From positions 144,642 through 208,641 of the forward strand of contig CANEXF010000004.1 of NCBI GenBank assembly GCA_947443645.1: 64,000 bases of DNA, given 5' to 3'. Below the pieces are notes generated by a model. That model made no database searches, had not been told where the DNA came from, and was given only the letters and a program-made list of their open reading frames with translations. Shown in pieces: positions 7,536 through 57,001 of the stretch (position 1 is the stretch's first letter; each line of letters starts with the position of its first letter). The translations under genes and the position numbers were made by a program. The DNA comes from Comamonadaceae bacterium. GTDB lineage: Bacteria > Pseudomonadota > Gammaproteobacteria > Burkholderiales > Burkholderiaceae_C.

Positions 7536-10500
7536 TTGAGCCTCACTTCATTGTCGTCCTTGCCCTCTTCCCCGCCTGACCTCTTGTCCTCGCCGCCTGC
7601 GCGGCTGTTGATCGAGTTTCCAGAATCGCTGCCCGTTTCGGCCAGGCGCGATGAGATCACGGCCGCCATGCAGGCGAACCAGGTCGTCATTGTTTGCGGT
7701 GAAACCGGCTCGGGTAAAACCACGCAACTGCCCAAGATTGCGCTGGCCATGGGCCGTGGCAAGCTCAACTACCCGGCTGGCCAGCGTGGCAAGCTGATTG
7801 GCCACACCCAGCCACGCCGTATTGCGGCGTCCAGTGTCGCCAAGCGCATTGCCGAAGAGCTCAAGACCACGCTGGGCGACGTCGTGGGTTACAAGGTGCG
7901 CTTTCAGGACCGGCTGAGCCGCGATGCGTCGGTCAAGCTCATGACCGATGGCATTTTGCTGGCTGAAACTCAGACCGATCCGCTGCTCAGTGCCTACGAC
8001 ACCATCATCATTGACGAGGCGCACGAACGCAGCCTGAACATCGACTTTTTGCTCGGCTATCTGCGCCAGCTGCTGCCACGCCGGCCCGACCTCAAGCTTG
8101 TGATCACTTCGGCGACGATTGATGCGCAGCGTTTTGCGGATTACTTTGCGTCTAATAATGGACCGGCTCCGGTCATCATGGTTTCGGGCCGCATGTTCCC
8201 GGTTGAACAGCGTTACCGCCCGTTTGAGGAATCGCGCGACTACGACCTCAACGACGCGATAGCCGATGCCGTCGATGAGCTCTGGCTCAGCCCGCACAGC
8301 GCCGGCGATATCCTGGTTTTTCTGCCGGGCGAGCGTGAGATTCGCGAAGCCGCCGATCATTTACGCAAGCATCTGTCGCACCAGCCGCTGAACCGCAACG
8401 CCGATGTGCTGCCGCTGTTTGCGCGTTTGAGTCCGGCAGAGCAAGACCAGATTTTCGCCGGGCACAGCAACCGCCGGATTGTGCTGGCCACCAACGTGGC
8501 CGAGACATCGCTCACCGTTCCTGGTATCCGCTATGTGATTGACGCAGGCACAGCGCGCGTCAAGCGCTACAGTTTCAGGAGCAAGGTGGAGCAGCTCATG
8601 GTCGAGCCGATATCGCAGGCGGCCGCCAACCAGCGCGCCGGCCGCTGTGGCCGGGTCGCCGACGGTATTTGCATACGTTTGTATGACGAGCAGGATTTTC
8701 TTGGTCGCACGCGCTTTACCGACCCCGAAATCCTGCGCAGTTCGCTGGCCTCGGTGATTCTGCGAATGAAGGCCTTGCGCCTCGGCTCGATTGAAGATTT
8801 CGCTTTCATTGAGGCGCCCCAGCGCCGCGCCATCACCGACGGCTACCAGCTGCTGGCAGAGTTGGGCGCGGTCGATGACGACAATGAACTCACGCCGGTA
8901 GGCCAGACGCTGGCCAAGCTGCCGCTGGACCCGCGCGTGGGCCGGATGATTCTGGAAGCCAGGGACAGGGGCGCGCTCGACGAGGTGCTGGTGATTGCCA
9001 GTGCGCTCAGCGTGCAGGACGTGCGCGACCGCCCCATGGACAAACAGGCGCCGGCCGACCAGGCACACGCCAAGTTTGATGACGAGAAAAGCGAGTTTGT
9101 CGGTTATCTGAAGCTGTGGAAATGGCTGGGCGACGCACGCGGCGGGAAGTCATCACACGGGGACATTCAATCGGTGGGGGTCAGAGCCCGATCTACCGAG
9201 CCGACCGCTGGCGCGGACGCCTCCGGTAATCGGGATCTGACCCACCATTCACACAAATTGTCCAACCGCCAGTACGAAAACCTGCTGCGCGAAAATTTCA
9301 TCAACATCCGCCGCGTACGCGAGTGGCGCGACATCCATTCACAACTGCACAGCGTGATTGGCGAACAAGGCTGGCATCTGAATGACAAGCCGGCCAGCTA
9401 CGAGCAGCTGCACCAGTCCATGCTTTGCGGCCTGCTTGGCAACCTGGGCCAGAAAAACGAGGAAGAAGACTGGTATCTGGGTGCGCGCGGCATCAAGTTC
9501 TACCGCCATCCCGGTGCCAAGCTCAGCAAAAAGCCGGGTCGCTGGATTGTGGCGTCCGAGCTGGTTGAAACCACGCGCCTGTTTGGTCGCGGCATAGCCA
9601 ACATTGAGCCGCAGTGGATAGAACAGGTTGCTGGCCACCTGCTGAAAAAGCAGCTGCTGGACCCGCATTGGGAAAAAAAGGCCGCGCAGGTCACGGCGCT
9701 GGAGCGCGCGACGCTTTATGGGCTGGTGATCTACAACGGCCGCCGCGTCAACTTCGGCCGGGTCGACCCGGTCACGGCGCGTGAGATCTTCATCCGTGAA
9801 GCGCTGGTGGCTGGTAACTGGGAAACCAAGCTGCCGTTTCTGGCGGCCAATCAAAAGCTGATTGTCCAGGTGCAGGATCTGGAGCACAAGGCGCGGCGTC
9901 AGGACGTGCTGGTTGACGAAGAGCTGATTTACGCTTTTTACGACCAGCAACTGCCTGCCGATATCTGCACCGGTGCGAGCTGTGAGCACTGGTACAAGGA
10001 CGAGGTCAAAAAACAGCCCCAACTACTGCTGCTCAGCCGGGAAGAGCTGATGCGCCACGAGGCCGCAGGAATCACCACGCAAGCGTTTCCGAAAACCCTG
10101 AGACTGGGCGGCGTGGACTGCAGCGCGACTTATCTGCACGAGCCGGGCGACGCCAGGGACGGCCTGACGGTAGACCTGCCGCTGTTTGCGCTGAACCAGG
10201 TCAACGAGGAGCGTTGCGAGTGGCTGGTGCCCGGCATGCTCAAGGACAAGATTCAGGCCTTGATCAAGACCCTGCATCAAAGGCCGCGTTCGCGCCTGGT
10301 GCCGCTGCCGGAAACGGCCGCGCGCATGGCCGCGCAATTGATGCAGCCCGAGGTGTTTGGCAGCGGCTCCTTGACAGATGCCGTGCTCAAGCTGGTGCGT
10401 GAAAGCGCGGCGGTCGATGTCAAGCGCGGCGACTTGAAGCTGGACATGCTGCCGGCGCATTTTTTCATGAACTTTCGCGTCATCGACGAGCACGGCCGGC

Positions 10501-11621
10501 AACTGGGCATAGGCCGAAGCCTGGGCGGACTCAAGGGCGAGCTGGGGGCCCAGGCGCGCGGCGCCTTCCAAGCCCTGGCCGGCCTGAAAAACCTGTCCAT
10601 TGCTGTGTCTGGTGCTGAAAAACTGCCTGCTTCAGACTCAAATTCAGTATCAAAAATGGCTGAGAGCCAATCGGGACGGGCGCGAGCAGCTCCTGAAAAT
10701 AGAGCAAATGCGGCAGCATCCGCGCCCAAGGTAGCCGAGCGTTACACCAGCTGGAGTTTTGGCGAACTGCCTGAACTGATGGAAATCCGCAAGGGCGCGC
10801 AGACCTTGATAGGCTTTCCAGCCTTGGTTGACCTGGGTGCTGAAGGCGGCGGCGCCGTGACCATAGAGGTGTTTGACGAGCCCGAAATGGCCGCAGCCAA
10901 ACACCGCGCCGGCTTGCGTCGGCTGTTTTCGCTGCAGATCAAGGATGCGCTCAAGTACCTGGAAAAAAACCTTCCCGACCTGCAAAAGACGGCCACCGCC
11001 TTCATGCTGGTCGGCCGTGCGCCAGACAATTCAGGCGGCGGAACGCTGGAGGAGCTGCGCACGCAAATCCTGGAGGTCGCGCTGGACCGCGCTTTCCTGC
11101 TCGAACCCTTGCCAACATCAGAGGCCGAGTTCAAAAAACGCGTGGAAGACGGCCGTGGCCGGCTGACCCTGATCGCCAGCGAGGTGGCGCGCCTGGCCGG
11201 GAGCATCCTGAGCGAGTACGCGGTGGCCCTGCGCAAGATCAAGGACAGCAAAAACGCGGCAGATGCTGCGGCAGATGCCGCTCAGCAGTTGCAGCGCCTG
11301 GTACCCAAACGGTTTTTGACCACCACGCCCTACGTGCAATTGCAGCACTTTTCGCGTTACCTCAAGGCGATCACGCTGCGGCTGGACAAGTGGCGAGCCG
11401 ACCCGGCGCGCGACAGCGCCCGCATGGCTGAACTCAAGCCCCAGGAGCAGCGCTTTTGGCGTCTGGTCGCAGAGCGCAAAGGCGCGAGCGACGCACGCAT
11501 GCAGGAGTTTCGCTGGTTGCTCGAAGAGTTGCGGGTCAGCTTTTTCGCCCAGGAATTGCGTACCCCGCAACCCGTCAGCCTTAAACGGCTGGAAAAGGTC
11601 TGGGCTCAGCTCAATAGCTGA
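7536..11621 (+). CDS. hrpA: DEAH-box ATP-dependent RNA helicase HrpA
   Basis: HrpA is a large DEAH helicase that acts on RNA and ribosome-related substrates. Walker A GETGSGKTT lies at residues 55-63, DEAH near 158-161, SAT just after, and the motif VI segment QRAGRCGR near 365. The HA2/OB and DUF3418 regions typical of HrpA follow. At 1361 residues it is slightly longer than the usual ~1300. The excess is partly explained by two in-frame repeat insertions, near residues 545-571 and 1033-1057. The start is uncertain: only TTG codons precede Walker A at a suitable distance, and I take the TTG at 7536. Confidence 0.95.
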   Translation: MSLTSLSSLPSSPPDLLSSPPARLLIEFPESLPVSARRDEITAAMQANQVVIVCGETGSGKTTQLPKIALAMGRGKLNYPAGQRGKLIGHTQPRRIAASSVAKRIAEELKTTLGDVVGYKVRFQDRLSRDASVKLMTDGILLAETQTDPLLSAYDTIIIDEAHERSLNIDFLLGYLRQLLPRRPDLKLVITSATIDAQRFADYFASNNGPAPVIMVSGRMFPVEQRYRPFEESRDYDLNDAIADAVDELWLSPHSAGDILVFLPGEREIREAADHLRKHLSHQPLNRNADVLPLFARLSPAEQDQIFAGHSNRRIVLATNVAETSLTVPGIRYVIDAGTARVKRYSFRSKVEQLMVEPISQAAANQRAGRCGRVADGICIRLYDEQDFLGRTRFTDPEILRSSLASVILRMKALRLGSIEDFAFIEAPQRRAITDGYQLLAELGAVDDDNELTPVGQTLAKLPLDPRVGRMILEARDRGALDEVLVIASALSVQDVRDRPMDKQAPADQAHAKFDDEKSEFVGYLKLWKWLGDARGGKSSHGDIQSVGVRARSTEPTAGADASGNRDLTHHSHKLSNRQYENLLRENFINIRRVREWRDIHSQLHSVIGEQGWHLNDKPASYEQLHQSMLCGLLGNLGQKNEEEDWYLGARGIKFYRHPGAKLSKKPGRWIVASELVETTRLFGRGIANIEPQWIEQVAGHLLKKQLLDPHWEKKAAQVTALERATLYGLVIYNGRRVNFGRVDPVTAREIFIREALVAGNWETKLPFLAANQKLIVQVQDLEHKARRQDVLVDEELIYAFYDQQLPADICTGASCEHWYKDEVKKQPQLLLLSREELMRHEAAGITTQAFPKTLRLGGVDCSATYLHEPGDARDGLTVDLPLFALNQVNEERCEWLVPGMLKDKIQALIKTLHQRPRSRLVPLPETAARMAAQLMQPEVFGSGSLTDAVLKLVRESAAVDVKRGDLKLDMLPAHFFMNFRVIDEHGRQLGIGRSLGGLKGELGAQARGAFQALAGLKNLSIAVSGAEKLPASDSNSVSKMAESQSGRARAAPENRANAAASAPKVAERYTSWSFGELPELMEIRKGAQTLIGFPALVDLGAEGGGAVTIEVFDEPEMAAAKHRAGLRRLFSLQIKDALKYLEKNLPDLQKTATAFMLVGRAPDNSGGGTLEELRTQILEVALDRAFLLEPLPTSEAEFKKRVEDGRGRLTLIASEVARLAGSILSEYAVALRKIKDSKNAADAAADAAQQLQRLVPKRFLTTTPYVQLQHFSRYLKAITLRLDKWRADPARDSARMAELKPQEQRFWRLVAERKGASDARMQEFRWLLEELRVSFFAQELRTPQPVSLKRLEKVWAQLNS
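9172..9250. repeat. Palindromic GGGTCAGA...TCTGACCC element inserted in hrpA
   Basis: The left arm (9175-9200, containing GGGGTCAGAGCCCGAT) and the right arm (9222-9249, containing ATCGGGATCTGACCC) are imperfect inverted copies around a GC-rich centre. The translated segment interrupts HrpA between the conserved WKWLGDAR and KLSNRQYE blocks, where homologues have only a short linker. The arm sequence resembles REP-type elements mobilised by RAYT transposases. That link is from memory, not tested. Confidence 0.75.
10635..10708 (-). repeat. Interspersed repeat, 'AGCTGC' family, inside hrpA
   Basis: Read on the minus strand it runs from TTGCTCTATTTTCAGGAGCT through a GCGCCCGT core to TTTTTGATACTGAATT. 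The last part matches the distal end of the patatin-gene copy (TTTTTGATGCTGGATT). It adds a Ser/Ala/Asn-rich stretch before the conserved YTSWSFGELPE block of HrpA. Confidence 0.7.
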
Positions 11622-29023: not shown

Positions 29024-30316
29024 TCAACTCTGAACCCTGGAGCGGATAAATTGTGCGATGCGCTGGGCGGCTTCCACGCACTCGGCGGTTTCTGCCACCA
29101 GCGCCATGCGCACGCGTCCGGCACCCGGGTTGTGTCCCTGCGCGTCACGGGCCAAATAGCTGCCCGGCAACACCACCACATTGTAGGCAGCCAGCAGGTC
29201 GCGGGAAAATGCCTCATCAGAGCCCTTGAAGACCTCGGGAATAGCGGCCCAGAGATAAAAGCCGGCATCCGGCAGCGCCACATCCATGACTTCGGCCAGC
29301 AGCGGCGTGACTGCAGCGAATTTCTTGCGGTACAGGGCCCGGTTGTCCACCACATGCGCCTCGTCAGCCCAGGCCGCGATGCTGGCCGCCTGAACAATGG
29401 GGCTCATGGCGCTGCCGTGGTAGGTGCGGTAAAGCAGGAAAGGCTTGATCAGCGCTGCATCACCGGCAACAAAGCCGCTGCGCAGGCCGGGCACGTTGCT
29501 GCGCTTGGACAGGCTGGTCAGCGAAATCAGGTTTTTGAAGTCATGCCGGCCCAGCTTGACGGCGGCTTCCAGGCCGCCCAACGGCGCTTCGTCGCGGAAA
29601 TAGATCTCGCTGTAACACTCGTCAGAGGCGATCACAAAGCCATGACGGTCGCTGAGCTCGAACAGCAGCTTCCATTCGTCCAGGCTCATGACGGCACCCG
29701 CCGGGTTGCCTGGTGAGCAGACAAAAATCAGCTGGGTTTTGGCCCAGACAGCCTCTGGCACGCTGGCCCAGTCAACCGCAAAGTTGCGCGCCGGATCGCT
29801 AGGAACAAACCAGGGCTCGGCCCCGGCCAAAAGTGCAGAGCCTTCGTAGATTTGATAAAACGGATTCGGGCAAAGGACTATTGGGGGCCCCACGCTCGCC
29901 ACTTCATGTGCTTCGCTGCCCCCCGAGGGGGCGTCGCCCGCCTTGGGGTAGCCCGGCAGCGGTCGGGTGCCCGTCTGCGTTGGATCAATAACTGTTTGCG
30001 CCAGTGAAAAAAGCGCTTCGCGCGAGCCGTTCACCGGCAGGATTTGCGTGGCTGCGTCGACCTCGATGCCGTAGCGTCTGGCCAGCCAGGCTTGAATGGT
30101 CTGGCGCAGTTTCGGCTCACCCAGTGTGCCGGGATAGCTGGCCAGGCCTGACAGGCTGCCGGTCAGCGCATCCTTGATCAACTGCGGTGTGGCGTGGCGC
30201 GGCTCGCCTATACCCAGGCTGATCGGGGTGTAGGCCGGGTTGGGCGTGACATCGGCGTGCAGCTTGCGCAGCCGCTCGAAAGGGTAAGGCTGAAGGCGTG
30301 AGAGCAGGGGATTCAT
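29024..30316 (-). CDS. dapC: Succinyldiaminopimelate aminotransferase DapC
   Basis: DapC transaminates N-succinyl-2-amino-6-ketopimelate with glutamate in the lysine branch. The 430-residue protein is a fold-type I PLP enzyme: LPVNGSREALF near 93-103, VCSPGNPAGAV, ASDECYSEIYF, and the lysine in SLTSLSKRSNVPGLRSGF. Family members have about 395-400 residues. The extra 30 or so (about 115-147) sit between AQTVIDPTQ and VLCPNPFYQIYEGS and are encoded by a 'CCCCCTCGGGGG' repeat. It is the first gene of the dap cluster, transcribed away from smc. Confidence 0.93.
   Translation of the reverse strand: MNPLLSRLQPYPFERLRKLHADVTPNPAYTPISLGIGEPRHATPQLIKDALTGSLSGLASYPGTLGEPKLRQTIQAWLARRYGIEVDAATQILPVNGSREALFSLAQTVIDPTQTGTRPLPGYPKAGDAPSGGSEAHEVASVGPPIVLCPNPFYQIYEGSALLAGAEPWFVPSDPARNFAVDWASVPEAVWAKTQLIFVCSPGNPAGAVMSLDEWKLLFELSDRHGFVIASDECYSEIYFRDEAPLGGLEAAVKLGRHDFKNLISLTSLSKRSNVPGLRSGFVAGDAALIKPFLLYRTYHGSAMSPIVQAASIAAWADEAHVVDNRALYRKKFAAVTPLLAEVMDVALPDAGFYLWAAIPEVFKGSDEAFSRDLLAAYNVVVLPGSYLARDAQGHNPGAGRVRMALVAETAECVEAAQRIAQFIRSRVQS
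29876..29962 (-). repeat. 'CCCCCTCGGGGGGCAG' palindromic repeat inside dapC
   Basis: On the minus strand it reads GCCCCCTCGGGGGGCAGCGA, a spacer, then a GTGGGGG-type end, matching the copies in glnD and upstream of yciB. It is translated in frame as a Gly/Pro-rich loop (SGGSEAHEVASVGPP) that DapC homologues lack. Confidence 0.85.
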
Positions 30317-48260: not shown

Positions 48261-50912
48261 TTAATCGTTCAGGGCCTGCAGCAGTTCGGTTTCGATAGCA
48301 ATCTGCGCCTTGTTGTGTTGCAGCTCCTGCCCGTCTATCAAAAAGGTGTCTTCTACGCGCTCGCCAAGCGTGGTGACTTTTGCCAGCTGCAAGTTGATAC
48401 GGTGTCGGGCCAGCACGCGCGCAATCAGGTACAAGAGGCCGACACGGTCACTGGCCGATACATTGAGCAACCAGCGCTGGGCTTTTTCATCGGGCCGCAA
48501 ATCCACCCGCGGCGCAATCGGAAAGCTCTTGACGCGGCGTGAAACGCGGCCGCGACCTGGCGCCGGCAAAGGCCCGCGCTCTTCGACCGTGCGGTTCAGC
48601 TCGGCCTCAACCATCGCGGCAAGCTCGCGGTAATGTTCTGCAATATCAGGACTGACGACTTGAAAGGTATCAAGCGCATAGCCATCGTGGGTGGTGTGGA
48701 CCTTGGCGTCCAGAATACTGAACCCGGCCTGATCAAAGTAGCCGCAAATACGGGCGAACAGGTCAGGTGCATCGGGCGTATAGACCAGCACCTGCATGCC
48801 TTCGCCGGTAGACGAGCGGCGCGCACGAACAATCGCCTTGGCCTTGCCAACATGGCGTGAAAGTTGCCGCGCATGCCAGGCGATGTCGGCGGCCTCGTGA
48901 CGCATGAAGTAACTCACGTCCAGGCTGGCCCACAAGGCCTTGTGCGACTCAAAGGGCTCGGCATGCAGCGCCAATATGGTCAGGGCCTCACGCTTGCGGG
49001 CCTCAACTTCTGCATCGGCGTCCGGTGCCCGCCCACCCAGCACGCGCAGCGTGTAGCGGTAGAGGTCTTCGAGCAGTTTGCCTTTCCAGGCGTTCCAGAC
49101 CTTGGGACTGGTGCCGCGTATGTCGGCCACCGTGAGCAGATACAGGGCCGTCAGGTAGCGCTCGTTGCCCACGCGCTTGGCGAATGCAGCAATGACTTGT
49201 GGATCGCTCAGGTCTTCTTTCTGGGCAATCCGGCTCATGCTCAAATGCTCGCCGACCAGAAACTCCGCAAGCTTTGCATCCTCTGTCGCGATGCCGTGCT
49301 GCCTGCAAAACAGGCGCACGTCCTTGCAACCGAGCTCGGAATGGTCACCACCGCGCCCTTTGGCGATGTCATGAAACAGTGCGGCGACGAACAGTATCCA
49401 CGGCTTGTCCCAGCCGGCGGCCAGTTGCGAACACATCGGGTACTCATGGGAGTGCTCGGCCATGAAAAAGCGCCGCACATTGCGCAGCACCATCAGGATG
49501 TGCTGGTCCACGGTATAGACATGAAACAGGTCATGCTGCATCTGACCGACGATTTTCCGGAAAGTCCAGAGATAGCGGCCGAGCACGGAGGTTTCGTTCA
49601 TCAGCCGCATCGCGTGTGTGATGCCTACGGGCTGCTGCAGGATTTTGCGGAAGGTGTCACGGTTGACCGGGTCGCTGCGAAAACCCGCGCTCATCACGCC
49701 GCGGGCGTTGTACAGCGCGCGCAAGGTGCGCGCCGACAGCCCCTTGATGCCGACATTGGTCTCGTAGAGCAAAAAGGTCTCTAGGATGGCATGCGGCTCG
49801 CGCACGTACAAATCATCGCTGACGACCTCCAGCATGCCGGCCTTGTCCGAAAACCGCTCATTGATGGCGCGCAGCGGGTAGGTGTTTGGATGGAGCCGCT
49901 CCTCAATGTTGAGCAACAGTATCTGGTTCAGCTGTGTCACCGCCTTGGCCGCCCAGTAATACCGCTTCATCAGCGCTTCACTGGCGCGCACCATGGGCCG
50001 TTTCGCCGACGGGCCGGCCTTGGGCGAAACAGCCCCCTCGGGGGGCAGCGAGGACACGCCAGAGGCGGGCGCGGGGGTACTGTGATAGCCGAACGATTCT
50101 GCAACAGCGGTTTGCAGGTCAAACACCAGCCGGTCTTCGCGCCGGCCAGCAATCAGATGCAGGCGCGCACGTATCAGGCTGAGCAGCGCCTCGTTGCTCT
50201 TGATCTGACGGACCTCAAAAGCCGTGGCCAGACCGCTTCTGGCCAGGTCATCCCAGGACTTGCCCAGGCCGGCGGCCCGGGCTACCCATAGCACCACCTG
50301 CAGGTCGCGCAGTCCACCTGGCGATTCCTTGCAGTTCGGCTCCAGTGAATAGGGCGTGTTTTCAAACTTGTTGTGGCGCTGGCGCAGCTCCAGTGTCTTG
50401 GCGACAAAGAAGGCCCGCGGGTCCATCAGGGCTTTGAGCTTTTCCTGCAGGCGGACAAAATTCTTCTTTGAGCCCGCCACCCGCCTGGCCTCCAGCAAGG
50501 AGGTTTGCACCGTGACGTCTTTGGTCGCATCTTCAATGCAATCGGCCAGCGTGCGCACGCTGGAGCCGATTTCCAGCCCGCTGTCCCAGCAGTTGCTGAT
50601 GAAGCTCTCAACCTTGGCCTTGAGCACCGGATCGCTATCGACTCTGGCGTCATCCGGTAGCAGCAACAGAACATCCACATCGGAATGGGGAAAAAGCTCA
50701 CCCCGACCGTAACCACCGGCCGCGACCAGACAGGCGCTGACTGGAAAGTCCGCCGCCTGCCACAGCAGTTGCAAGGTGGCATCGGTGTGCCTGGCCAGTT
50801 TTTGTAGCAGCGTGTGAATGCCGCGGCTGGAAGCCTTGCTGGCCGCCAGGGAGGCGAACAGGGCGTTTTTACCGGCGCGGTATTCCTCGCGCACCTGGGC
50901 CAGGTCAGTCAT
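48261..50912 (-). CDS. glnD: [Protein-PII] uridylyltransferase/uridylyl-removing enzyme
   Basis: GlnD senses glutamine and adds or removes UMP on PII proteins. The 883-residue protein has the nucleotidyltransferase motif [18 protein letters not shown], a GlnD PII domain, the HD phosphohydrolase domain ([18 protein letters not shown]), and two C-terminal ACT domains. I use the ATG at 50912; an earlier start at 50996 overlaps map. Residues about 276-306 (Pro/Ala/Ser-rich) come from an inserted repeat between AESFGYHS and [16 protein letters not shown]. It lies 22 bases downstream of map, the usual order. Confidence 0.96.
49993..50083 (+). repeat. 'CCCCCTCGGGGGGCAG' palindromic repeat inside glnD
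   Basis: GCCCCCTCGGGGGGCAGCGA is identical to the core of the dapC copy. The flanks (GGCCTTGGGCGAAACA and GGCGGGCGCGGGGGT) also correspond. In the gene frame it encodes [20 protein letters not shown]. Confidence 0.87.
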
Positions 50913-50934
50913 GGGAAGCTTTACGGAAAGCGGA

Positions 50935-51795
50935 TCAGGCGGCGCTGACGGACACGGACCGGTCGGGTTGCGCGTTGGCAACCAAGCCCGTGACAAAGGC
51001 CGGGATCTCCGGGCTTCCGGCAGACAGCGTCAGCACTTCATAGCCGGTCTCGGTGACCAGTATGGTGTGCTCCCACTGCGCTGACAGCGAATGGTCGCGC
51101 GTCACAATGGTCCAGCCGTCTTTTTCTGCGCCGTCCTTGATCTCGCGCTTGCCGGCGTTGATCATGGGCTCTATCGTGAAGGTCATGCCAGGCTTGAGCT
51201 CTTCAAGCGTGCCAGGCCGGCCGTAATGCAGCACCTGCGGCTCTTCATGAAAACGCTTGCCAATACCGTGGCCGCAAAACTCGCGCACGACGGTAAAGCC
51301 CTGTTTTTCGGCAAAAGTCTGAATGGCGAAACCGATGTCACCCAGCCTGACGCCGGGCTTGACGCGCATGATGCCTTGCCACATGGCCTCGTAGGTGACC
51401 TTGCAAAGTCGCTTGGCAGCAATCGAGACTTCACCAATCATGTACATGCGGCTGTTATCGCCAAACCAGCCTTCTTTGGTGATCACGGTGACATCAATAT
51501 TCATGATGTCACCCTTTTTCAAGGGCTTGTCATTAGGAATGCCATGGCACACCACATGGTTTAGCGAGGTGCACAGCGATGCAGGATAAGGCGGATAGCC
51601 TGGCGGTTGGTAGCCCAGTGTGGCGGAAACCGTGCCCTGCACGTTGACCATGTAGTCGTTGGCGAGCTTGTCGATTTCTCTGGTGGTCACACCGGCCTTG
51701 ACGAAAGGCGTCAGGTAATCCAGCACCTCGGATGCCAGTTTGCAGGCCACGCGCATGCCTTCGATACCGGCTGCATCTTTGTAGGTAATACTCAT
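50935..51795 (-). CDS. map: Methionine aminopeptidase, type I
   Basis: Map removes the initiator methionine. The 286-residue enzyme has the five metal ligands in their usual contexts: [38 protein letters not shown] and [10 protein letters not shown]. The ATG at 51795 is where family members start; a codon 30 bases earlier adds ten residues. It is the first gene of map-glnD and is divergent from purL. The C-terminal extension of about 20 residues ([13 protein letters not shown]) is poorly conserved. Confidence 0.96.
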
Positions 51796-52022
51796 GCGCA
51801 GATTATCCCACTGACGGCAAGCCATGATCCGTTCACGGTTTTCCGGGCCACAGACTGCCGGAGATATCTGCGCTTGGGCTGGAGGGCCGCTGTGCGCTGG
51901 TAAAATCCCGCGTTAACGTACCGCCGCCGGCAGATCAATGCCGCAAGGTGCACGCCCCCCACAGGCGCGGCTTCACAGTCGCCCGCTAACTGCCTCCCAA
52001 CCGCCACCAGGCCGACGACATC
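51796..52022. other. Divergent intergenic region map / purL
   Basis: This 227-base spacer must hold promoters for map-glnD and purL. A TAAAAT about 120 bases before the purL GTG is a possible -10 element, but no well-spaced -35 is evident. No PUR-box or purine riboswitch recognised. Confidence 0.4.
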
Positions 52023-55000
52023 GTGACCCTTCACCTGACGACTTTTGTGGGCGAGCCTCGCGGCATCAATGCCCTGAGCGACTTTCGCATCCAGCAACTC
52101 CTTCCGCGCCTGCAGGCCATAGAAAGCAAAGTAGTGGGCGTCAGCGCCCGTTTCGTGCATCTGGTGGCGAGCGAAGCGCCACTGGCAGAAGCTGCAAAAA
52201 CCCAGCTCGCCGCCTTGCTGAGCTATGGCGAGCCGGGTAAGGCCGAGGTCGAGGGCCGATCCCTGGATGCGGCGCTGTTCATCGTGTCGCCGCGTTTTGG
52301 CACTGTCTCGCCCTGGGCGTCCAAGGCCACCGACATTGCGCACAACTGCGGGCTGGCGGTCAAACGCATAGAGCGCGTCACCGAATACCGCCTCACGATC
52401 AAGTCTGGACTGCTGGGCAAGAGCACGCTGACGACCGGCCAGCGCGAGCAGCTGGCCGCCTTGCTGCACGATCGCATGACAGAAAGCGTGATGCCAGAGC
52501 TGGCGCAAGCCGCCGGACTTTTTGACGAGTTGCTGGGCGCAGCGCTGCAAACCATAGACGTTCTGGGCGGCGGCAAGGCCGCGCTTGAACGCGCCAATAT
52601 CGAATTTGGCCTGGCGCTGGCCGCTGACGAGATTGACTATCTGGTGCAGGCGTTCACAGAAAACCCGCAGCTCAAGCGCAATCCGACCGATGTTGAGCTC
52701 ATGATGTTTGCGCAGGCCAACAGCGAGCATTGCCGGCACAAGATCTTCAACGCCGACTTCACGATAGATGGCGAACGCCAGGACAAGAGCCTGTTTGCCA
52801 TGATTCGCAACACTGAAAAGCTCAACCCCCAGCACACGGTGGTGGCTTATTCAGACAATGCGTCTGTCATGGAGGGCTCCGAAGTCCAGCGTTTTTATGC
52901 CAAATCGACTGCTAACGACCAGGCGACGGGCGCAAGCAGCTATCAAAAATATAGTGCTACAGAAGCCGTTCTGACGCATGTGCTGATGAAGGTCGAGACG
53001 CACAACCACCCGACCGCGATTTCTCCGTTTCCTGGCGCGTCCACCGGCGCGGGCGGCGAGATTCGAGATGAGGGCGCGACCGGCCGTGGCTCCAAACCGA
53101 AGGCGGGCCTGACAGGTTTCACGGTCTCCAGGCTGTTTGATGGCGATTACGGCAAACCAGAGCACATTGCCAGCCCGCTGCAAATCATGACCGAGGGACC
53201 GCTCGGTGGCGCGGCCTTCAATAATGAATTTGGCCGGCCCAATCTGACGGGGTACTTTCGTGAATACGAGCAGACCGTAGGCGGTCAGCGCTGGGGTTAC
53301 CACAAGCCCATCATGATCGCGGGCGGCGTCGGCACGATTGACGCCGGGCTCACGCAGAAGATCCTGTTTCCGGCTGGCACCTTGCTGATTCAGCTGGGCG
53401 GTCCTGGCATGCGCATAGGCATGGGCGGCAGCGCCGCCAGCTCCATGGCATCGGGCGCCAACGCAGCGCAACTCGACTTTGATTCGGTGCAGCGCGGCAA
53501 CCCCGAGATCGAGCGGCGCGCCCAGGAAGTCATCAACCAATGCGCGCAACTGGGTCAGGCCAACCCGATTCTGGCGATCCACGATGTCGGCGCCGGCGGC
53601 CTGTCGAATGCCTTTCCCGAGCTGGTCAATGACGCGGGCCGTGGCGCACGCTTTGATTTGCGCGCCATCAAGCTCGAGGAAAGCGGCCTTTCTCCCAAGG
53701 AAATCTGGAGCAACGAGAGCCAGGAACGTTATGTCATGGCGATCGCCCCCGAGTCGCTGGCGCAATTCCAGGCCTTTTGCGAGCGCGAGCGCTGCCCGTT
53801 TGCCGTGATTGGTGTGGCGACTGAAGAGCGGCAACTGGTTCTATCGGATGCCGGCGTGCCCCTCACCCCAACCCTCTCCCCTGAGGGGCGAGGGAGCGAT
53901 TCCGTTTTGCACCCTCTCCCCCTGGGAGAGGGCAGGGGTGAGGGCGTTTTCGCATCGGCCCCAGTTCATATGCCGATGAATGTGCTGCTGGGCAAACCAC
54001 CCAAGATGCATCGCGACGTCAAGAGCGTTGCGCACACCATCACGCCGCTTGACCTGACGGGCATTGAGTTGCAAGCAAGTGCGATTGCCGTGCTGAGCCA
54101 CCCGACGGTGGCATCCAAGCGTTTTCTGATTACCATTGGCGACCGCAGCGTGGGCGGCTTCACGCACCGCGACCAGATGGTCGGCCCGTGGCAGGTGCCT
54201 GTGGCCGATTGTGCGGTGACACTGGCCGATTACCAGGGTTTTTCTGGCGTGGCCATGAGCATGGGGGAGCGCACGCCACTGGCGGTCGTCAATGCAGCGG
54301 CATCTGGGCGCATGGCCGTGGCCGAGGCCATCACCAATTTGCTGGCCGCACCGATAGAGCTGGCGCGCGTCAAGCTCTCGGCCAACTGGATGGCTGCTTG
54401 CGGTGAACCGGGCCAGGACGCCGCGCTCTATGAGACTGTCAAGGCTGTCGGCATGGAACTCTGCCCGGCCCTGGGCGTGTCGATTCCGGTGGGCAAAGAC
54501 TCCTTGTCCATGCGCACCGTCTGGAGCGAAGACGGCAGCAGCAAGAAAGTCACCTCGCCGGTGTCGCTGATCGTCAGCGCCTTTGCTACGCTGAGCGATG
54601 TGCGCGGCACGCTGACGCCGCAACTCAATGCGCAGGAAGCCGACACCACCTTGATCCTGATCGACCTGGGCAAGGGCCAGTGCCGCATGGGCGGCTCAAT
54701 ACTGGCGCAAAGCCTGGCGCTGGAAGGCGGTGATGTCCCCGATCTGGACGACGCCAAGGACCTGGTGAACCTGGTCAAGGCGATCAACCAGCTGCGCGGC
54801 CAGGGCCAGCTGCTGGCCTACCACGACCGCAGCGACGGTGGCCTGTTTGCCACCGCCTGTGAAATGGCTTTTGCCGGCAACGTTGGCGTATCGCTCAATG
54901 TCGACATGCTGCTGGTTGAAGGCGATGGCATTTCCGACAGCCGCATGGACACTGGTGACAGTAAGAACTGGGCCAGCCAGGTCAGCGCACGCCGCGAAGA

Positions 55001-56174
55001 GCTCACGCTCAAGGCCTTGTTCAATGAAGAACTCGGCGTTGTGATTCAGGTACGTGACGAGGTGCGCAACGAAGTCATGCAGACACTGCGTGAGCATGGG
55101 CTGTCAAAATTCAGCCACTTTGTCGGAAAGACCCGACCGCAACATGCCGCGCTCACGGTGGGCAAGGGCGAGGTCCAGGTCTGGCGCGATGCCAAGGCGG
55201 TCTTCAAGGCTCCGCTGCAGGACTTGCACCAGGTCTGGGATTCGGTGAGCTGGAAGATTTGCCAGCAGCGCGACAACCCTGCCGGCGCGGATGCCGAACA
55301 TGCGGCAGTGGGTGACCCCACCAATCCCGGCTTGCACGTCTTTCTCCCTCTCCGGCCGGGAGAGGGCAGGGCTGAGGGTTCCCCATATTTGAATTTATCA
55401 AAACCCAAGGTAGCTATCCTGCGCGAGCAGGGCGTCAACTCGCATGTGGAGATGGCTTACGCTTTCACACAGGCCGGCTTTGATGCCTGCGACGTGCACA
55501 TGACAGACTTGCAAAGCGGGCGAGCCCAATTGGCGGACTTCAAGGGCGTCGTTGCCTGCGGCGGGTTCAGCTATGGCGACACCTTGGGTGCAGGCATTGG
55601 CTGGGCCAGGTCCATCACCTTCAACCCGCTGTTGGCGACGCAGTTCAAGGCCTTTTTTGCGCGCCAGGATACCTTTGGTCTGGGCGTGTGCAACGGTTGC
55701 CAGATGTTTGCCGAACTGGCCGAGATCATTCCAGGGGCTGATGCCTGGCCGCGCTTTACCACCAACAAGAGCGAGCGCTTTGAGGCGCGTTTTAGCCAGG
55801 TCGAAGTGCTCGACTCGCCCAGCCTGTTCTTTGCGGGCATGGCCGGCAGCCGCTTGCCGATTGCCGTGGCGCACGGCGAGGGTTTCGCCAACTTTGACCC
55901 CTTGCTGGGTGGGCGAGGCCATGCCGCGCAGACGATTGCGGCGATGCGCTTTACAGACAACCACGGTCATCCCGCACAGGGCTATCCGGCCAATCCCAAC
56001 GGCAGTCCAGACGGGCTGACGGCCGTGACCACAGCGGATGGCCGCTTCACGGCCATGATGCCGCACCCGGAGCGGGTGTTTCGCAACATCCAGATGAGCT
56101 GGAGTCCACTGGACAGCAGTGCGCACAGCCCGTGGATGCAGCTTTGGCAAAACGCACGCAAGTGGGTTGGCTAA
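52023..56174 (+). CDS. purL: Phosphoribosylformylglycinamidine synthase, large single-chain form
   Basis: PurL converts FGAR to FGAM with glutamine and ATP in purine synthesis. The 1383-residue enzyme has the N-terminal PurS-like domain, the FGAM synthase halves ([33 protein letters not shown]), and a C-terminal class I glutaminase with its cysteine near 1223 (GVCNGCQM). Family members have about 1295-1340 residues. Three repeat insertions explain the excess: about 296-315, 613-641 and 1108-1119. All keep the frame. The start is a GTG. Divergent from map. Confidence 0.96.
52908..52967 (-). repeat. Interspersed repeat, 'AGCTGC' family, inside purL
   Basis: On the minus strand GTAGCACTATATTTTTGATA runs into AGCTGCTTGCGCCCGTCG. 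It encodes [13 protein letters not shown] just before the conserved [13 protein letters not shown] block. Confidence 0.85.
53859..53944. repeat. CCCTCACCCC...GGGGTGAGGG palindromic repeat inside purL
   Basis: Outer arms CCCTCACCCC (53860-53869) and GGGGTGAGGG (53935-53944) are perfect inverted copies, and inner CCCTCTCCC/GGGAGAGGG segments pair as well. It is read in frame as [13 protein letters not shown]...[10 protein letters not shown], a residue pattern often seen where this repeat is mistaken for coding sequence. Confidence 0.9.
55344..55378. repeat. CCCTCTCC...GGAGAGGG palindromic repeat (short form) inside purL
   Basis: The stem CCCTCTCCGG/CCGGGAGAGGG is followed by CAGGGCTGAGGG, a half of the longer 53859-53944 element. 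In frame it gives [14 protein letters not shown] just before the glutaminase domain. Confidence 0.85.
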
Positions 56175-56197
56175 GCGCGCGGCGACTCAAGCGGTCA

Positions 56198-57001
56198 TCA
56201 AGGCGCGGGCGGAGCCACCGCCGCGCCTTCGATCTGGTGGCGTTGCAGCGCCTTGGCGACAAAGCCCGAGACTTTCATCTCCTCGATGAAAGTGTGCATA
56301 TAAGGCAGCGCCGCCTCGCGCCCTTTGGGCAGACCCATGGCTTGCTGAATCACCATGAAACGCCCGTCCAGCAGGCGCAGACCCGGCAGGCGCTGGGCAT
56401 CTGCTTGCAGCTGCTGCTTGACGCCGGCCGCGACTTCCATGTTCTGCGCGAGAAACACATCTGTGACCGTCGGTGAGGTCGGTGCCTTGACCAGCGTTGC
56501 GGCCTTGAGCGCTCGCGTCAGGTAGAGATCGTAGGCGCTGCCGTTGCCAACCACCACGCGGTTGCCGGCACGGTCCACATCCTCGTTGCGCTGGATAGGC
56601 GAATCCTGCTTGACCAGATAAGCCCCTTCAATGATCACGTAGGGCGGCGTCTGCAGCATGTCATTGGCACGCACCGGGTCCAGCGCAACAAAGGCGATGT
56701 CGACCTCTGCGTTCTTCACCGCTTGCACCACCTTGCCTGCCGAGTCAAATGGATGCAGCACGACGGGCACGCCCAGGCGCCGGCCCAGTTCACGCGCCAA
56801 GTCGACAGAAACGCCACGCGGTGCCCCACTGGCGGCATCCCTGATGGCCAATATGGGGTTGCCAAAATTGATGGCTGCGCGCAGGCTTCCCGTGGGTGCC
56901 AGCACAGCTACCGGCGCACGCGGCGACGTTGCGCAGGCGGCCAGCACACCTAGCAGACAGCTCAGGCCGAGGCCGCTGGCCACGCGTTGCCAAAGCACCA
57001 T
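56198..57001 (-). CDS. Periplasmic solute-binding lipoprotein, family 3 (amino-acid type)
   Basis: The 267-residue precursor has a lipoprotein signal with lipobox L-A-A-C at residues 19-22. The mature part resembles family 3 binding proteins: TGSLRAAINFGNPILAI, then GVSVDLARELGRRLGVPVV, and DIAFVALDPVRAND. Ligand is unknown; polar amino acids are usual for the family. No permease or ATPase genes are adjacent. It overlaps the stop of the upstream metallo-hydrolase gene (ATGA), so the two are translationally coupled. Confidence 0.85.
   Translation of the reverse strand: MVLWQRVASGLGLSCLLGVLAACATSPRAPVAVLAPTGSLRAAINFGNPILAIRDAASGAPRGVSVDLARELGRRLGVPVVLHPFDSAGKVVQAVKNAEVDIAFVALDPVRANDMLQTPPYVIIEGAYLVKQDSPIQRNEDVDRAGNRVVVGNGSAYDLYLTRALKAATLVKAPTSPTVTDVFLAQNMEVAAGVKQQLQADAQRLPGLRLLDGRFMVIQQAMGLPKGREAALPYMHTFIEEMKVSGFVAKALQRHQIEGAAVAPPAP

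Follow-up and report, generated by a model that had tools for sequence, protein, structure and literature searches.

How does an essential purine gene come to carry pieces of dispersed repetitive DNA within its reading frame, and why do such pieces persist there? This question is raised by purL, the gene for FGAM synthetase, in a 64-kb stretch of DNA (the window) from the 3,225,575-base, 50-contig genome of a Comamonadaceae bacterium; among named records, those of Polaromonas are the nearest to the PurL of the window. The genome contains a single purL gene (matched in two adjoining pieces), and the protein has Pfam matches to FGAR-AT_N, FGAR-AT_linker, AIRS_C, FGAR-AT_PurM_N-like and GATase_5. 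A first-pass annotation had described three segments of this gene, here denoted sites 1, 2 and 3 (Table 1), as repeat insertions of two unrelated families that keep the frame between conserved blocks. Both parts of this description are supported: all three segments are present, sites 2 and 3 belong to one dispersed family (A) and site 1 to another (C), each with many other copies in the genome, and alignment with relatives combined with reading of the loop DNA places the segments in frame between conserved blocks. We consider it highly probable that these segments are copies of dispersed repeats that moved in as DNA and are translated as extra loops, surviving where the loops of the protein tolerate them.

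Table 1. Coordinates of purL, its repeat segments and two further genic repeat copies in the window
Feature	Position	Strand	Remarks
purL, FGAM synthetase, 1383 aa	52023..56174	+	Open throughout; GTG start as listed
Site 1: old family C element, AT-rich, ~55-64 nt; residues ~294-312	52902..52957	+	Consensus match; loop common to relatives
Site 2, first half: family A triplex motif (by sequence), antisense; residues ~613-624	53859..53894	-	34/36 identity to E. coli TMECO no. 9 (PMC4666352)
Site 2, second half: family A triplex motif (by sequence), sense; residues ~630-641	53912..53945	+	31/34 identity to TMECO no. 1
Site 3: single family A triplex motif (by sequence); residues ~1108-1119, before glutaminase domain	55346..55378	+	27/34 identity to TMECO no. 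1
Family B core inside glnD (48261-50996, minus strand)	50032..50050	+	Exact core; GlnD by NCBIfam; in frame
Family B core and end inside class I/II aminotransferase gene (29024-30316, minus strand)	29886..29932	-	Cores; Pfam Aminotran_1_2; in frame

At site 2, two family A units form an inverted pair (53859-53945), with a CCCTCACCCC palindrome whose arms (53860-53880 and 53924-53944) are 90% complementary, and the short palindrome of site 3 shows 83% identity over 42 nt to the second half of site 2. The palindrome core CCCTCTCCCNNNGGGAGAGGG, with up to three mismatches, occurs at 20 forward positions of the genome and at none in the control; we grouped these positions into 13 loci, two of which lie within the single 4.15-kb purL gene, compared to 0.02 expected from simple proportion. 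The site 1 sequence, originally described as an 'AGCTGC' repeat, is better written AAATCG...GACGGGCGCAAGCAGCTATCAAAAATATAGTGC. Its core (52936-52954) has one match in the window versus a mean of 0.00 in 100 shuffles, and the family C string AGCTATCAAAANNATAG, with up to two mismatches, has 57+49 matches in the genome versus 1+2 with the reversed control. Site 1 aligns to the family C consensus, which was built from 33 copies of this genome including the purL copy, with a z score of 20.2. The expectation that the same repeats would recur elsewhere in the genome is thus borne out for both families. That the segments are instead native, length-variable loops of PurL that merely resemble repeats appears very improbable, given that the DNA at all three sites of the window matches dispersed repeats of the same genome well above shuffled sequences, that the palindrome is intact at site 2, and that the repeat family found at these loops varies between species; this holds despite the long-standing presence of site 1 in the genus and the variation of loop length in lineages without a recognized repeat, also at a loop near open reading frame (ORF) position 386.

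Family A can be identified by its sequence as the G/C-rich intrastrand triplex motif (TM/PIT) of Escherichia coli. The similarity to the TM_ECO/PIT element (Holder et al. 2015, PMC4666352) involves the sequence itself, the inverted pairs and the many copies per genome. In the second half of site 2, the third strand mirrors the stem (stem of 9, 1 mismatch), as the class II triplex motif requires; under a simplified rule, neither the first half of site 2 nor site 3 has a third-strand match. According to PMC4666352, all copies of the motif in E. coli K-12 MG1655 are intergenic. Here, in contrast, family A is found in frame in purL (2/13 loci) and, according to the coding classifier described below, in eight of the 11 other loci, and is not confined to intergenic positions. 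Triplex motifs inside genes look new.

The suggestion that the insertions were recent fared differently among the three sites. At sites 2 and 3, where many relatives have a short loop and others carry inserts of other repeat families, the reading as insertions holds. At site 1, recency does not, with a 33-aa loop in 40 of the 64 same-genus loci read. When 47 of 80 fetched loci were aligned with the window, the six nearest relatives (five named Polaromonas and one Burkholderiales metagenome-assembled genome) proved to have the longer loop at site 1 as well, and the loop is therefore old. Of 125 non-duplicate loci, 50 have a recognizable family C element at site 1, including loci of Acidovorax and Rhodoferax; the hairpin of the window copy is decayed, and its RNA fold is unexceptional (z -0.1). 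Shared segments with conserved residues, which had been proposed as the mark of native loops, are thus found at site 1 only in part, because the loop is shared among relatives but its residues are not strictly conserved.

The evidence on where repeats persist comes from the PurL genes of relatives. Among 87 genomes of the genus, 82 yielded a PurL match and 70 PurL loci were read; for these and other relatives, family labels were assigned by reading the loop DNA and then scoring it against consensus strings with shuffles, after removal of duplicates (six scored records duplicating genus genomes were excluded from the tree, core scan, frame check, coding samples and final counts). Two additional families emerged. 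Family B, a repeat of about 86 nt with the core GCCCCCTCGGGGGGC, has 90+100 matches in the window's genome versus 0 in the control and is present in 85 of the 87 genus genomes, compared to 56 for family A; family D resembles the repetitive extragenic palindromes (REPs). Of 116 non-duplicate loci at site 2, 19 carry B, eight carry A, one carries D and one a weak C; of 121 at site 3, 15 carry A, eight carry C and two carry D. Two of the site 2 labels are doubtful, namely C in L030 and B in L019, where the insert is 11 aa long (L numbers designate individual loci). Four unrelated families, A, B, C and the REP-like D, thus appear to insert into genes of Polaromonas and its relatives. Across 127 PurL genes, the cores of families A, B and C are confined to the three loops, save for one weak stray match, and in 133 full-length PurL sequences, sites 2 and 3 and a single further loop, which has no A, B or C core, account for all inserts of at least 15 aa outside the N-terminus. 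The loop near ORF position 386 was considered as a further repeat site and rejected: it is a loop of other Burkholderiales and outgroups and is devoid of A, B and C cores. In Limnohabitans (L013 and L015), the site 2 loop is filled by a tandem repeat of the GTTCAGCGTTCAG type, without an A-D label.

These comparisons also revise the view that several events in one gene are unusual. Among the 58 same-genus PurL genes in which all three sites were read, the window included, 22 carry labelled repeats at two or three sites, 29 have a repeat at site 2 or 3, and eight have repeats at both. That unrelated families repeatedly occupy the same loops looks new.

The distribution of repeat states over the PurL phylogeny indicates change at all three sites. 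On a tree of 99 PurL sequences from which the loops were removed, the minimum numbers of state changes are 13, 27 and 22 at sites 1, 2 and 3, respectively; these are not counts of insertions because the A inserts of L136, L140 and L143 have neighboring codons in common. Near relatives differ in state (L112 versus L109 at site 3, and L142 versus L125 at site 2). The site 3 insert of L143 belongs to family A, whereas its neighbors on the tree have C there, a replacement of one family by another. Shortened family B copies are present in L157 and L159, and the short loops of L131, L134 and L156 retain, by eye, the end of family B. We read the shortened copies and end fragments as insertion followed by decay.

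These patterns can be accommodated in a simple scheme, under which the repeats are presumably mobile and insertions probably strike many places within genes. The survivors would be those copies that preserve the frame and land in a protein loop or an interdomain linker tolerant of extra residues, which would explain why the same few loops are reused by unrelated families. Surviving copies, presumably neutral, would then decay through in-frame deletion and substitution, and a decayed copy may give way to a copy of another family.

The protein-level evidence fits such filtering. In a sample of 145 loci, every stretch for which both anchors could be located keeps the frame between them and contains no stop codon (130/130, 120/120 and 136/136 at sites 1, 2 and 3); a frame break is present within the purL match of L073 in the 47-locus alignment. 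This record bears on the idea that the inserts are removed before or during translation, by an intron, bypass or excision of the DNA. Although bacterial introns and bypassed sequences do exist, removal would require neither the frame nor the absence of stops, and their retention at all anchored loci therefore counts against it; moreover, an Rfam scan of 51800-56300 gave two sub-threshold matches only, neither of them an intron. We find removal scarcely credible and assume that the inserts are translated in the living cell. Just 3' of purL (56201-56279), there is a sub-threshold Rfam match to the Burkholderia small RNA ncS16 (25.7 bits; gathering threshold 48).

The positions of sites 2 and 3 within the protein correspond to domain borders. 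The site 2 motif starts 6 residues past the end of the best AIRS_C match and maps between positions 598 and 601 of chain 1t3t_A, and site 3 ends 8 residues ahead of the GATase_5 match, which begins at residue 1127. In an AlphaFold2 model of residues 190-1383 (34 sequences, mean pLDDT 71.7), the site 2 insert has pLDDT below 50 and lacks secondary structure between two strands, and pLDDT is below 50 also in parts of sites 1 and 3.

Such locations, together with the very strong hairpin of site 2 (53850-53960: -77.7 kcal/mol, z -7.1, 0/200 shuffles as good), which A inserts at this site often keep (median z -4.5, range -9.9 to -0.8), are compatible with useful inserts maintained by selection, either as mRNA hairpins that slow the ribosome at domain borders and aid folding or as linkers that tune the enzyme. 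However, many relatives lack inserts, the inserts decay, and folds are weak for the inserts at site 1, the B inserts at site 2 and the inserts at site 3 (median z -0.1 to -1.0; for site 3 of the window alone, z -1.4, with 19/200 shuffles as good). In addition, the peptides are unrelated and the frames differ: L135 reads family A as PSPQPSPSGRG...GERAGVRG, in another frame than the window, and therefore the peptide itself is not conserved. A selected benefit thus appears distinctly unlikely, and we favor repeat copies that the protein tolerates.

A further alternative is that the loops are hot spots at the DNA level, where a common target sequence or structure attracts repeats. Repeated hits on the same short stretches are what this alternative would predict, and we rate it as unlikely given that several unrelated families use the same loops, that by eye no motif recurs in the sequences flanking empty sites (no motif search was run), and that the linker of UvrA exhibits the same pattern. 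Among 23 parsed UvrA loci, A or a variant is present in six and B in one, all at one linker, and L278 carries family A at a second place too. These loci derive from a search of 51 genomes, of which the 30 best matches were taken; seven without an ORF were not counted. The open frame that contains UvrA is about 1,900-2,170 aa long in most of the 51 genus genomes (G000:C15:18369-21299; relatives L275-L304) and has a second UvrA-like half adjoining it, apparently a fused double UvrA. Protein-level selection would account for the reuse of loops in both PurL and UvrA.

As the UvrA case illustrates, purL stands as a host gene but is not the sole one: at least 16 other genes of this genome contain family A or B segments according to a coding classifier. 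Its training set consisted of five window ORFs, of which three were assumed to be coding without a family search, and its thresholds were set by us; of 200 random positions in the same loci, it scored 94 as coding. The eight other hosts of family A are propionyl-CoA carboxylase-like, formate dehydrogenase-like, indolepyruvate oxidoreductase-like and oxoprolinase-like genes as well as those for an FAD/FeS oxidase, an MmeI-like protein, YgiQ and UvrA. For family B, nine of 30 sampled sites were called coding, and the family matches among these nine hosts include CMAS, aminotransferase and GlnD (both in the window), AcrB, M20 peptidase, APH and PEP carboxylase. About nine of 33 family C sites appear by eye to be coding, purL included, with TruB, RsmB-like and LpxB genes among the hosts. 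The stretch of GlnD around residues 305-345, which holds the B core, looks inserted. An alpha/beta hydrolase gene of this genome (L326:621-2099) seems by eye to contain several tandem B-like segments in frame. The window ORF at 7536-11621, which we take to encode a large helicase-like protein, has insert-like stretches, none of which matches the repeat cores.

Several observations weigh against the interpretation of the segments as mobile repeats filtered by protein tolerance. The coding rate of family B (9/30) is below that of random positions (94/200), and in other genomes of the genus, sampled at one copy per genome, fewer copies were called coding, 6/29 for A and 7/28 for B (one of the latter in purL; three loci, one for A and two for B, were excluded because of their short length). 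Ten long inserts at site 2 and five at site 3 carry no family label. The structure model is modest, and stretches other than the inserts are poorly predicted too. The three A inserts with shared neighboring codons may reflect one event or spread by recombination; a sliding identity comparison revealed no clear recombination tract by eye. An unrecognized preference at the DNA level could also produce the reuse of loops. Finally, no transposition event, target-site duplication or mobilizing enzyme was found in this analysis. A Y1 transposase (PF01797) of about 240 aa, mostly single-copy, is present in 84 of the 87 genus genomes. Mobilization by such a REP-associated tyrosine transposase was rejected, no A or B copy being present beside the Y1 transposase in the 20 loci read (L255-L274), for which repeat scores were obtained without shuffle comparison and, in L260 and L269, another ORF was picked; L270 has at most a short C-like stretch near the transposase gene.

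The mechanism is known in kind. In PMC10969869 and PMC3733652, the Rickettsia palindromic elements are described as several palindromic families found in frame in unrelated housekeeping genes. The repeats analyzed here likewise comprise a dispersed palindrome in frame in unrelated genes, a likeness in the pattern as described. They differ from the Rickettsia elements in belonging to another bacterial lineage, in the use of more than one frame for family A, which thus has no single conserved peptide, and in the reuse of loops by unrelated families. Di Nocera et al. (2013, PMC3733652) reported intragenic GTAG/CGTC REPs, with uvrA and truB, both of which are also hit here, among the host genes. 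They propose loops and linkers as harmless REP sites and describe a single instance, in recB, in which different REPs occupy roughly the same position; Polaromonas is absent from their text. However, neither a GTAG nor a CGTC tag was seen by eye within 53855-53950, around the site 2 palindrome, and no transposase gene flanked by A or B was found in the 20 Y1 loci. A CGTC at 55337-55340, a few bases 5' of the site 3 palindrome, lies in His-Val codons common to many relatives and is taken as chance. Family B resembles BRE in size and range, compared by description only: according to PMC3110155, BRE is about 90 bp long, has most copies in Polaromonas sp. JS666 (29), and lies in some cases wholly within coding sequences. 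A search by name for purL with palindromic insertions found no such case among the literature matches listed, and no purL was among the matches listed for intragenic palindromes, REPs, Polaromonas repeats, the CCCTCTCCC string or triplex motifs, most subscription journals being outside the scope of these searches.

Taken together, these results indicate that short dispersed repeats can repeatedly supply central enzymes with new protein sequence in a bacterial group beyond Rickettsia. They also place triplex motifs, which in E. coli are tied to instability between genes, inside open reading frames. Because unrelated families occupy the same loops in many species, the effect of protein tolerance can be told apart from that of target preference, and an old question becomes testable. 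As a tentative extension, which we consider nearly as likely as not, Polaromonas genomes would pervasively carry at least three unrelated repeat families in frame within housekeeping genes, with continuing entry, decay and replacement at fixed permissive loops; extrapolation from 9/30 B, about 9/33 C and 8/11 A sites gives, very roughly, 100 such genes in this 3.2-Mb genome. If so, the record of insertions would amount to a natural linker-scanning experiment that marks the tolerant sites in essential proteins.

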